From: Halobacillus sp. Marseille-Q1614
Lineage (GTDB): Bacteria > Bacillota > Bacilli > Bacillales > Halobacillaceae
Reading direction: 5' to 3'
NCBI RefSeq assembly: GCF_902809865.1
Contig: NZ_CADDWH010000001.1
Coordinates: 992,001 to 1,056,000 of the forward strand
Length of the DNA stretch: 64,000 nt
Shown here: piece after piece, positions 18,634 to 25,718 of the stretch
Position numbering within the stretch: the stretch's first letter is position 1
Layout of the letters: each line of letters starts with the position of its first letter
The notes under the pieces: generated by a model
Seen by the model: the letters and a program-made list of their open reading frames with translations, nothing else
Told to the model about the DNA's origin: nothing
Database searches by the model: none
Made by a program: the position numbers and the translations under genes

Positions 18634-19596
18634 ATGCAAGGAGAACTTAAAACCATTGATATCCAACTAAATAATCCATCCGAAGCCCTTTCTTTATTTG
18701 GCACAGAAGACCGCCATTTAAAACAATTGGAAGAGCAGCTGAAGGTAACTATCATATCCCGCGGGGAGCGTGTCAGCGTCTCGGGAGAAGCCGAACACGT
18801 GAAGCTCGTCGAAGAGGTTTTATTAGCTGTGCTGGCCATTATCAGAAAAGGCTTAACGATCACAGAACGCGATATAGTATATGCCGTTGAACTTGCGAAA
18901 AAAGGGAAAATTAATCAATTTGAAGCTTTGTTTGAAGATGAGATTACCCGCAACGCCAAGGGGAAATCGGTACGTGTAAAGACATTAGGGCAGAGAAGTT
19001 ATGTATCTGCTATTAAAAACCACGATCTTGTTTTTGGAATCGGTCCAGCCGGAACAGGCAAAACTTACCTCGCTGTAGTTATGGCGGTGAACGCCCTGAA
19101 AAATGGTGAAGTCAAAAGAATTATTCTAACCCGCCCTGCTGTTGAGGCTGGAGAAAGTCTAGGGTTTTTACCAGGTGATCTTAAAGAAAAGGTAGACCCT
19201 TATCTTCGTCCGCTGTACGACTCGCTGCACGATGTTTTCGGAGCTGAACATACGGCCCGCCTTATCGACAGAGGAACCATTGAAATCGCACCGCTTGCTT
19301 ATATGCGGGGAAGAACATTGGATGATGCATTTGCTATATTAGACGAAGCCCAGAACACGACACCTGAACAAATGAAAATGTTCTTGACTCGTCTCGGATT
19401 CGGCTCGAAAATGATTATAACCGGGGATATCACCCAGGTCGATTTGCCAAAAGGAATGACTTCAGGCTTGAAAGTAGCCGAGCAGAAACTGGGTAATGTT
19501 AAAGGAGCTTCCTTTATTCATCTAGATCAGACAGACGTCGTACGTCACCCACTGGTTCAGCGAGTGATTGATGCTTATGAGAAGGATCCATCTTAA
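18634..19596 (+). CDS. phoH: PhoH-like ATPase
   Basis: A 320-residue P-loop ATPase with an N-terminal KH-like part and the PhoH domain. Walker A is GPAGTGKTY (near residue 135) and Walker B FAILDEAQN; GFLPGDLKEKVDPYLRP and ITGDITQVDLP are diagnostic of PhoH. The family is linked to RNA metabolism and often adjoins ybeY, as here with pgpH between. It begins 2 bp after yqfD with AAGGAGA inside the yqfD end. Confidence 0.95.
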   Translation: MQGELKTIDIQLNNPSEALSLFGTEDRHLKQLEEQLKVTIISRGERVSVSGEAEHVKLVEEVLLAVLAIIRKGLTITERDIVYAVELAKKGKINQFEALFEDEITRNAKGKSVRVKTLGQRSYVSAIKNHDLVFGIGPAGTGKTYLAVVMAVNALKNGEVKRIILTRPAVEAGESLGFLPGDLKEKVDPYLRPLYDSLHDVFGAEHTARLIDRGTIEIAPLAYMRGRTLDDAFAILDEAQNTTPEQMKMFLTRLGFGSKMIITGDITQVDLPKGMTSGLKVAEQKLGNVKGASFIHLDQTDVVRHPLVQRVIDAYEKDPS

Positions 19597-19618: not shown

Positions 19619-19657
19619 TAATATTTTAAGATCTCTATGGGGAGGAGGGTGAAGGGT

Positions 19658-21782
19658 GTGGGAAAAAGATTTTGGCACTGGATACGGCGGTCTTCTAAGC
19701 ACCAGAAGAGTATTTGGAAAATCAGTATTCCAGCACTGCTCATAGCACTCGTCTTTTTTTTACTCAGCATTTCTAACGTACATATTAAAACTTACAGTCT
19801 TGAAAAGTTCAGTGAAGCTGAGGAAACTATCCGCTCCCCTATAACGATTGAGAACAAACTGAAGACAGAGCAGCGAATACGGGAAGCTGCACAATCTGTT
19901 GAGGACCGCTATCAAATTTCCCTGCCGGTTGCAGAAGAGAGAATCGGGTATATGGAAGAAATTTTTGCAGCTGTGCATGAAGTGAAGCAATCCGCTTCAG
20001 AAGAGACATCAACGGAAAAAAAATTAAACCAATTGACATCACTTTTATCTGAACCCATTACTACAGAGCTCCCCACTGAGATTTTTCGGCCACTTTTTTC
20101 AGCGTCCCAATCCGAATTAGAATCGATCGAACAGCTATTACTCACTTCATTAAACTCTCATTTTGAAAAAGGTGTAAGAAAGACTGAAATTGAAGATGTT
20201 GAGGGAACACTGCAGCTGGAAATCCAATATTCAGACGTTCCAGATCGTTTGAAAGAGGAAGTTTTTGAATTAGCTGAATTCGCCCTTGTGGAAAATACGA
20301 TGTTTGATGCTGAAGCTACAAGTGAAGTACGTAAAGAGGCGGCTTCTCTTATTCAGCCGGAAATGATTCAGGCCGGAGAAGTGATCGTTTCAGAAGGAGA
20401 AACGATCACAAGCGAAATTTATGAGGAATTAGAAATCGCTGGTATATTAAATGAAGACGCCAATTATATGCCATCTATCGGTTTGGCGATCTTTTCTTTA
20501 ATCGTTGCTCTGTTATTGATGTATCATTTTTACCATATGATTAAAGAGGAGCTGATCTGCTATAGACACCTTTCGCTAGCCGTAGTCGTATCAATCATTA
20601 TGATGGTGCTCATGAAAGTGATCAGCTTGTTTTCCTCCGCCCACGATCCTATGTTTTATGTGCTGCCAGCGGCCTTAGGGGCGATGCTGATAAAAATTTT
20701 AAGCACTGAAAGGTTCGCTATTCTGTTAAGCATTGTCCTCTCGCTGGTTGCGATGATGCTCTTTAACGGGCAAGTGCCTGGAGATTTAAATGCCCATGCA
20801 GGCATATATTTATTATTTTCTCAATTAGCGGGTATATTCTTTTTGAAAAATACGAGCGACCGGCTGTTTATTGTTAAAGTAGGGACAGGCATCGGTTTAG
20901 TGAATCTTATGACACTGAGCTTCATTTTATTCCTGTCCTTTGAGAAATACGGCTGGCTGGATTTAGCTGTCTTTGCCGGGTATAGTGTAATAAGTGCCCT
21001 GCTGTCCATTATTTTAACGTTTGGGCTGCTGCCGGTTATCGGAGTCATCGTTTGGTATACTATCAGATAATAAGCTGCTCAATCTTTCTAATCCCAATCA
21101 CCCTCTGCTGCGCAAAATTCTCACTGAGGCACCCGGCACTTACCATCATAGTGTGATGGTCGCTAACTTGAGTGAAGCAGCATGTGAGTCGATAGGAGCA
21201 AGAGGACTGCTGGCAAGAGTCGCTGCTTATTACCATGATCTCGGAAAAACACTGCGGCCCAACTATTTTATCGAAAATCAAATGGGCCTTAAGAATCCGC
21301 ACGACTTTATCGATCCGAAGCAGAGTGCGTCCATCATTATTAGTCACCCTTATGACGGGGCGCGTATGCTTAAAGAAGAAAAGTTCCCGGATGAAATAAT
21401 CGATATTGCGATGCAGCATCACGGGACTACTTTATTGAAATACTTTTATGTAAAGGCGAAAGAAATCGACAGAAACGTCAGTGAAGAAGTGTTTAGATAT
21501 CCAGGGCCTAAACCACAGACGAAAGAAGCGGCAATTGTATGCGTATGTGATTCAGTGGAAGCTGCCGTCCGGTCGCTGAGTGAGCCGACTCAGGATAAGA
21601 TAAGAGGGATCGTTCATTTGATCATAGAAAGCCGCATGCTCGACGGACAGTTTGATGACTGCCGGATCACATTTAACGAATTAAAAAAAGTAGAAAATGC
21701 AATTTGTGAAACACTACAAGGGATCTTTCATTCAAGAATCCAATATCCAGACCAAAAAACAACCGTGAAGGAGGCCAATTAA
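19658..21782 (+). pseudogene. pgpH: PgpH/YqfF 7TMR-HD c-di-AMP phosphodiesterase, frameshifted
   Basis: Membrane HD-domain hydrolase that degrades c-di-AMP. The gene is in two frames. The first part ends at TAA 21068-21070 and holds the extracellular 7TMR-HDED domain (about residues 40-265) and the membrane segments. The second continues to 21782 and holds the HD domain (TYHHSVMVANLSEAA, AYYHDLGKT, ISHPYDGA, MQHHG). Removing one G at 21041-21042 joins them as LPVIESSFGILSDNKLL...SNPNHPLL, the expected family junction, and restores about 707 residues, near the usual 711. No ribosome site precedes the second half. I take GTG 19658 after GGAGGAGG as the start; ATG 19637 is in-frame upstream. A sequencing error is possible. 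Confidence 0.85.
21035..21070 (+). other. Frameshift site in pgpH
   Basis: Frame 2 reads CCG GTT ATC GGA GTC and reaches TAA at 21068. Skipping one G (21041) gives GTT ATC GAG TCA TCG TTT, which continues as the conserved ESSFGIL. No slippery heptamer or shifty stop is visible, so programmed frameshifting is unlikely. Confidence 0.8.
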
Positions 21783-21783
21783 A

Positions 21784-22260
21784 ATGATCCACATCGATTT
21801 TCACGACGAAACAAATTCAGTAGATGAAGCTTATGTAGATTTAATTGAACGTGTTATCCAGTATGCCGCTAAGAAAGAAGAAGTCCCGGGCGAAGCGGAA
21901 CTCTCGGTAACGTTTGTAGACAATAAAGAAATCCAGGAAATTAACCGCAATTATCGCCAGAAGGATCAGCCAACTGACGTAATCTCATTTGCGATGCAGG
22001 AGCTTGGCGAAGGTGAAGTTGAAGTACAGGCTCAGAATGAGAACCTGCCCGTACTTCTTGGCGATATCGTTATTTCAGTTGATATGGCTAAAGAGCAGGC
22101 TGAGGAATATGGCCATTCCCTCGAAAGAGAGCATGCGTTTCTAGCGCTGCACGGATTTCTTCACCTGCTTGGTTATGATCATATCGAAAAAGAAGATGAA
22201 AATAAGATGTTTGCTAAGCAAGAGGAAATCTTAAATGAGTACGGACTTGAACGCTCGTAA
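21784..22260 (+). CDS. ybeY: Endoribonuclease YbeY
   Basis: Single-strand-specific endoribonuclease involved in 16S rRNA 3'-end processing and ribosome quality control. The 158-residue length is normal. The zinc-binding motif HGFLHLLGYDH sits near residue 125, and INRNYRQKDQPTDVISFA is the other family block. The ATG at 21784 follows GAAGGAGG, 1 bp after pgpH ends, so the two are cotranscribed. It overlaps dgkA by 26 bp. Confidence 0.97.
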   Translation: MIHIDFHDETNSVDEAYVDLIERVIQYAAKKEEVPGEAELSVTFVDNKEIQEINRNYRQKDQPTDVISFAMQELGEGEVEVQAQNENLPVLLGDIVISVDMAKEQAEEYGHSLEREHAFLALHGFLHLLGYDHIEKEDENKMFAKQEEILNEYGLERS

Positions 22261-24582: not shown

Positions 24583-24800
24583 TACTAAATATTTGTTTGC
24601 AAAGAAGGAAAGTAGTAATCGATCACTGTGTGTTTTTAGAGAGCCCGGGATGGTGGGATTCGGGCAGCACGCAATCGATGAAGGCGTTCTGGAGCAAAGT
24701 ACGTGTAAAGCGGCTTCCGGTTTTTTTGGCGGAAGCAAATAGGGTGGAACCGCGGTAACCCCGTCCCTATGTCGAGGAGACATAGAGACGGGGTTCTTTA
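24583..24800 (+). promoter_or_regulatory. Glycyl T-box riboswitch
   Basis: tRNA-sensing leader of glyQS. The T-box AGGGTGGAACCGCGG is at 24741-24755. Stem I shows the AGTA/GTAA element near 24612, an apical AG-bulge region (GAGAGCCCGGG), and a specifier loop in which GAAGGCG follows the ATCGAT stem; the triplet GGC (24683-24685) reads glycine. Uncharged tRNA-Gly would stabilise the antiterminator and allow glyQS expression. The ORF at 24554-24742 lies within this leader and is rejected. Confidence 0.95.
24757..24800 (+). terminator. T-box attenuator terminator
   Basis: AACCCCGTCCCTATGTC pairs with GACATAGAGACGGGGTT, followed by CTTTATG. Its 5' arm is next to the T-box sequence, as required for the antiterminator switch. 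Confidence 0.92.
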
Positions 24801-24830: not shown

Positions 24831-25718
24831 ATGAATATTCAAGATATGATACTTACTTTACAAAAGCACTGGTCCAATCAAGGCTGTCTCTTAATGCAGG
24901 CTTATGATGTTGAAAAGGGAGCAGGCACGATGTCTCCTATGACGCTGCTGAGAAGTTTAGGTCCAGAACCGTGGAACGTGGCATACGTGGAGCCTTCCAG
25001 ACGTCCGGCCGACGGGCGTTACGGGCAGAACCCGAACCGTTTATACCAGCACCACCAGTTCCAGGTCATTATGAAACCATCTCCTGACAATATACAGGAG
25101 CTGTATCTTGATTCTTTAAAGGCGCTCGGAATCGACCCTGAAAAGCATGATATTCGTTTTGTAGAGGATAACTGGGAAAACCCTACGTTAGGAGCGGCCG
25201 GATTAGGATGGGAAGTGTGGCTCGATGGAATGGAGATTACTCAGTTTACTTATTTCCAGCAAATCGGAGGCTTGGAAGCCCGCCCGGTATCTGCTGAAAT
25301 TACGTATGGTATTGAGCGTCTCGCATCCTATATTCAGGATAAAGAAAATGTTTTTGAATTGGAGTGGACGAACGGCGTAACGGTTGGAGACATTTTCACA
25401 CAGCCGGAATACGAGCACTCTGTTTACACATTTGAAGAATCTGATGACGATATGCTGTTTGATTTGTTTTCTACGTATGAAAAAGAAGCTAAGCGCATCA
25501 TGGAAAAAGGGCTCGTCTTTCCTGCGTATGATTATGTGCTTAAATGCTCGCACACTTTTAACCTGTTAGATGCGAAGGGAGTAATCTCTGTAACCGAACG
25601 AACAGGCTATATATCAAGAGTGAGAAATCTGGCACGATCTATCGCGAAAACCTACGTAGAAGAGAGAGAAAGATTAGGATTTCCAATGCTTGAGAAGGGG
25701 GAGTTCACTCATGAGTAA
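24831..25718 (+). CDS. glyQ: Glycyl-tRNA synthetase alpha subunit
   Basis: Catalytic subunit of the tetrameric bacterial GlyRS. The 295-residue protein carries [37 protein letters not shown] and [18 protein letters not shown], the class II aminoacyl-tRNA synthetase motifs of GlyQ. The ATG at 24831 follows AGGAGG. It is controlled by the upstream T-box and overlaps glyS by eight bases. Confidence 0.98.

Follow-up and report, generated by a model that had tools for sequence, protein, structure and literature searches.

Probable recent frameshift inactivation of the c-di-AMP phosphodiesterase gene pgpH in Halobacillus sp. Marseille-Q1614, apparently one of several losses in its family

The PgpH protein of Listeria monocytogenes (Lmo1466; 4s1b, 4s1c) consists of a 7TMR-HDED domain, a 7TM region and an HD domain, and the gene studied here encodes the same three domains. 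In contrast to the Listeria gene, the Halobacillus one is split by a 1-base frame offset ahead of the HD domain. Two reports on Bacillus subtilis describe what follows when the enzyme is removed: deletion of pgpH alone leaves biofilm gene expression unchanged (PMC4879592) and makes osmoadaptation slower (PMC8844918), and a pgpH gdpP double mutant grows slowly, acquires suppressors and does not cope with osmotic stress (PMC8844918). The defects of the double mutant would account for a loss of pgpH only alongside GdpP. Inactivation of a c-di-AMP phosphodiesterase in several strains has reportedly also been observed for gdpP of Staphylococcus aureus (PMC8715439) and pde1 of Streptococcus pneumoniae (PMC10576035); those losses are tied to beta-lactam resistance, whereas in Halobacillus and its relatives it is pgpH that is affected, GdpP is kept and there is no known drug context. 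Lactic acid bacteria, according to PMC10243994, mostly have GdpP without PgpH, which is found in few genera. This is the same one-enzyme state, yet in the Halobacillus family the loss is repeated and several of its stages are visible. Among the matches listed in the open-access literature, we found no description of pgpH loss in Halobacillus or its relatives.

The window, that is, the whole stretch of DNA analysed, spans 64,000 nucleotides (bases 992001-1056000 of contig 1) of the Halobacillus sp. Marseille-Q1614 genome (G000), which is 3.98 Mb long and assembled in 3 contigs. On the forward strand of the window, the pgpH site is flanked upstream by phoH (18634-19596, 320 aa), which adjoins it in all 44 family regions compared, and downstream by the locus marker ybeY (21784-22260, 158 aa). 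The phoH gene is 86-88% identical to those of H. aidingensis, H. litoralis and H. dabanensis. Between these neighbors, pgpH is divided over two open reading frames of the same strand. The 5' piece (19637-21070, 477 aa) matches PF07697, the extracellular 7TMR-HDED domain (2e-42), and PF07698, the 7TM-7TMR_HD region of seven helices (2.9e-22, profile positions 3-182 of 190), and ends without an HD domain; the 3' piece (21021-21782, 253 aa) matches the HD phosphodiesterase domain PF01966 (8.4e-20). The true start of the gene is likely to be GTG 19658, not ATG 19637, because an SD-like motif, GGAGGAGG (19641-19648), falls between the two codons.

Both pieces align to one uninterrupted frame of 715 codons in the sister genome G004, the first covering residues 6-468 and the second residues 462-715 in a different frame. 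When the DNA of the two loci is aligned, every length difference within pgpH is divisible by three except one, a single base located at the junction (21041-21042 on the forward strand), and the three PgpH domains of G000 consequently share no single reading frame. An earlier note on this DNA, made from the letters alone, had proposed precisely this frameshift, named the gene pgpH, and recognized that the first part lacks the catalytic HD domain, all of which the profile matches and the alignment confirm. Its restored length of about 707 residues also fits the open frames of 705-734 aa in 20 intact relatives. A gene-calling artefact can be excluded as the cause of the split. Beyond the junction, the 5' frame continues for nine codons and then stops. 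As the note had also claimed, the second part has no apparent ribosome site: no SD-like motif is present in the 20 bases upstream of any of its four possible starts (21021-21168). The early stop together with an HD frame devoid of such a motif means that no full-length PgpH would be expected by normal reading. A spare copy elsewhere in G000 was considered and rejected, since a search of the genome for a second PF07698 match returned this one only. The search for the other c-di-AMP phosphodiesterase, GdpP, which the note had recommended, yielded a full-length frame of 658 aa (match at C1:3259363).

We consider it probable that a recent single-base frameshift inactivated pgpH in G000, with GdpP remaining, and that this event is one of some ten losses in the family. 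Active PgpH would then no longer be made in this strain, breakdown of c-di-AMP would be carried by GdpP alone, and what is left of the gene would be expected to erode until only a scar separates phoH from ybeY, an outcome apparently reached in many relatives. A rise in c-di-AMP following the loss of PgpH, as the note anticipated, is only inferred for G000. With its frame disrupted and its orthologues intact in G004 and 19 other genomes, the gene is probably a pseudogene. The note had left three options for its origin, namely an assembly error, a recent inactivating mutation and a rare non-standard frameshift. Recent inactivation is now favored, given that pgpH is broken or unmatched in 24 of 44 family genomes and that two genomes besides G000 have a separate single frameshift in a pgpH that is otherwise good, while a conserved programmed frameshift finds no support among the intact relatives, where 20 of 20 encode the protein in one frame. 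Nor is the extra base shared by close relatives, which, together with an expressed full-length protein, the note had named as a refutation: 20 of the 44 family genomes are open through the junction, and the split is thus no family trait.

The best surviving alternative, which we regard as unlikely, is that assembly or sequencing introduced the extra base by mistake and that PgpH is functional in this strain. A single wrong base would suffice, pgpH of the sister genome is intact, and the G000 branch still appears to be under selection. Counting against an error are a clean assembly in 3 contigs and the absence of any run longer than 2 bases within 8 bases of 21041-21042. For a frame-break control, the open reading frames in 400 kb of G004 were set against 464 kb of G000 sequence that includes the window. 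This flagged mid-gene breaks in 2 of 314 orthologues in G000 and likewise 2 of 314 in G004. Applied to the other pairs, the same control flagged 2 of 127 orthologues in G062 and 1 of 127 in its sister G033; for G017 the count was 2 of 50, and for its sister G023 it was 0 of 50. In each of G000, G062 and G017, pgpH is one of the two flagged genes; the other is a 115-aa ORF in G062 and a 105-aa ORF in G017. The other flagged ORF of G000 lies outside the window, is 357 aa long and 61% identical, and has stops at 39 and 62. Therefore pgpH is the sole clear mid-gene frame split among the 314 orthologues in and around the window, in agreement with the note's statement that the remainder of the block is intact. 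A looser pass (318 and 319 orthologues) brought the candidates to 17 for G000 and 13 for G004. In 14 of the 17, the difference is confined to the N-terminal 26 or C-terminal 10 residues, consistent with start or end differences. If all flagged breaks were errors, the rate would amount to 13 to 25 errors per genome; with mid-gene breaks this rare, a random error would be unlikely to hit G000 pgpH (about 1%, an estimate). A fresh frameshift in 2 of the 22 other genomes that retain most of pgpH is a further point against an error, although those in G062 and G017 might be errors too. Besides pgpH and the 357-aa ORF, the looser pass left one more candidate in G000, a 592-aa orthologue (C1, about 1068691-1068816; L232) that has its first 42 residues in a different frame, possibly a second frameshift or a start-site difference.

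The conservation of the two pieces bears on the age of the break. All 13 His/Asp columns that are invariant across the 20 intact relatives and the truncated protein of G008 are kept in the HD piece of G000; we take these residues to be metal-binding. Over its whole aligned length (222 of 222 residues), the piece also matches the solved Listeria PgpH chain 4s1b (E 2.6e-90). Polarized with five outgroup genomes and summed over the two pieces, the nonsynonymous and synonymous changes since the G000-G004 split number 13 and 21 in G000 and 15 and 24 in G004, so that relaxed selection preceding the break is not seen in the G000 branch. At just one position does G000 have lysine where all 21 remaining proteins of the alignment have glutamate, which was weighed against inactivation. 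The gene seems to have been under normal constraint until very recently. Kept His/Asp columns and unrelaxed constraint imply that the break is either very young or an error; judged on the gene itself, G000 pgpH looks like an ordinary young pseudogene, with an error the less likely case.

What favors true inactivation is the pattern of loss at the phoH-ybeY site across the family. We sampled 44 genomes, one per species and including G000, and compared the phoH-ybeY region of each with G004 pgpH using tblastn. Twenty have an intact gene, four a broken one (G000, G008, G017 and G062), and twenty show no PF07698 match; PF07698 is thereby present in 24 of 44 genomes and YbeY in 44 of 44. The loss is always found at the phoH-ybeY site, in stages that comprise single frameshifts, a half-gene, remnants, and scars of 19-26 bp. 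In G062, pgpH carries one 1-base indel relative to G033, an intact sister whose locus is 97.0% identical, and G017 shows a 2-base offset near the gene end when compared with G023. In G008, the extracellular half is gone and a 440-aa frame of the membrane and HD parts persists with the conserved His/Asp columns, which may constitute a working enzyme. Of those without PF07698, three (G005, G006 and G061) retain detectable pgpH remnants, mostly with stops. In the other 17, tblastn detects no pgpH at the site, where the gap measures 176-562 bp in 13 genomes and 19-26 bp in four of genus g6 (G015, G018, G021 and G024). The g6 genomes, from which pgpH is cleanly deleted, are smaller, at 2.6-3.2 Mb. 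Single frame splits affect pgpH in 3 of 23 genomes (the half-deleted G008 excluded), gdpP in 1 of 43 (the fragmented G066 excluded), and phoH and ybeY in 0 of 44 each (Fisher p 0.011, with relatedness ignored).

To place these losses, a tree of the 44 genomes and four outgroups was built from PhoH, YbeY and GdpP; G001, G066 and the outgroups entered it without GdpP, and two outgroups without PhoH. Assuming that a lost pgpH is never regained, the Dollo minimum is 11 losses, or 10 when nodes with support below 95 are collapsed and 5 when those below 99 are. Excluding the three frameshift genomes lowers the minimum to 8, or 7 with nodes below 95 collapsed. Read on this tree, the break in G000 would be one of several independent losses in the family, about ten (5 to 11).

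Absence of the gene is much less common in the rest of the order. Of 299 genomes drawn evenly from the order and surveyed for presence of the domain, with at most 10 candidates scored per genome, 274 have it. Twelve of those drawn are family members, and among the 287 outside the family 21 lack it, five of which were identified by inference and shown to belong to other families. Absence in 20 of 44 family genomes versus 21 of 287 outside gives a Fisher p of 1.6e-9, with relatedness ignored.

GdpP, by comparison, is kept. Among the 44 family genomes, 42 carry a full-length frame (657-671 aa), and these 42 include every one of the 24 whose pgpH is defective or absent. The 21 genomes of the order that lack a pgpH match all have one as well (657-668 aa), which brings the count to 45 of the 45 genomes examined in which pgpH is not intact. 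The two exceptions in the family both have an intact pgpH: G001, where gdpP is split into frames of 286 and 402 aa (L185, G001:C2, about 911-2880), the converse of the common case, and G066, fragmented into about 1000 contigs, in which no GdpP match was found. DAC-domain cyclases occur in 44 of 44 family genomes. A third DAC-domain protein (217-aa frame; G005:C1:114898-115251 and G007:C1:2616586-2616939) is specific to two sister genomes, both of which have lost pgpH.

According to PMC11332333, PgpH is among the proteins correlated with OLE RNA, and a connection to c-di-AMP has been the subject of speculation. With strict filters that weak matches may escape, we found OLE RNA in 43 of 44 family genomes, G066 being the exception; the copy in G000 is at C1:1093607-1094233 (L233). 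It is kept in 24 of 24 genomes with a defective or absent pgpH, indicating that its retention is independent of an intact pgpH.

The remaining explanations for the split in G000 fare worse than an error. That ribosomal frameshifting fuses both frames and produces some full-length PgpH is very improbable. The frames do overlap at 21021-21070, and a shift there would regain the HD domain, but the junction is encoded without any shift in all 20 intact relatives, and no slippery run is present at 21041-21042. Programmed frameshift sites are usually conserved, and the one in G000 is not. Just as improbable, in our judgment, is that the pieces are made separately as a split enzyme, or that the 5' piece retains a signaling role. 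Both are open and conserved, yet the 3' piece has no SD-like motif ahead of any of its four starts, initiation from 21153 on would leave out the first conserved His pair (residues 42-43 in the 3' ORF), and no other family genome is broken at the same point. Phase variation through homopolymer slippage is rejected, as no run close to any of the three fresh breaks exceeds 3.

Inactivation of G000 pgpH within a series of family losses, the reading we prefer, leaves the reason for such frequent loss to be considered. The wider pattern, in which one c-di-AMP phosphodiesterase of a pair is lost again and again and its partner persists in every genome affected, is of moderate interest. The nucleotide c-di-AMP controls potassium and osmolyte uptake, and Halobacillus lives in salty places. 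Bacteria of such habitats would be expected to guard both degrading enzymes; here one appears to have been lost about ten times. It is conceivable, if somewhat short of probable, that PgpH is repeatedly discarded, perhaps under selection, and that a constantly salty habitat or rich medium favors a GdpP-only system; constant salinity and rich laboratory medium as the cause are guesses. If true, this would run contrary to what the slower osmoadaptation of B. subtilis pgpH mutants leads one to expect, and would uncouple PgpH from OLE RNA, whose statistical association with it had led to speculation on a functional link. Sister species with and without PgpH would offer a system for testing the roles of the enzyme beyond those of GdpP.

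Several candidate correlates of the loss were examined and rejected. Loss of sporulation does not fit, a SpoIVA match being missing in 3 of 44 genomes only, all of genus g6. The mean number of RCK_C domains is 5.75 in intact and 6.08 in defective genomes (p 0.78). Loss of the synthase can be discounted as well: DAC matches number 2 everywhere except in the four g6 genomes (1 each) and G005 and G007 (3 each). The c-di-AMP riboswitch, searched with similarly strict filters that weak matches may escape, is present in 4 of the 24 genomes with defective pgpH and in 1 of the 20 with intact pgpH (p 0.36). These five ydaO riboswitches are in G000 (C1:40703-40860), G006, G022, G034 and G066, and each is followed on its own strand, some 0.5-1.2 kb further downstream, by an RCK_C match, presumably in a KtrA-like protein. 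Elsewhere in the window, a T-box leader at 24593-24771 (93.6 bits versus a gathering score of 93) lies upstream of a 295-aa ORF at 24831, which we take to resemble glycyl-tRNA synthetase alpha.
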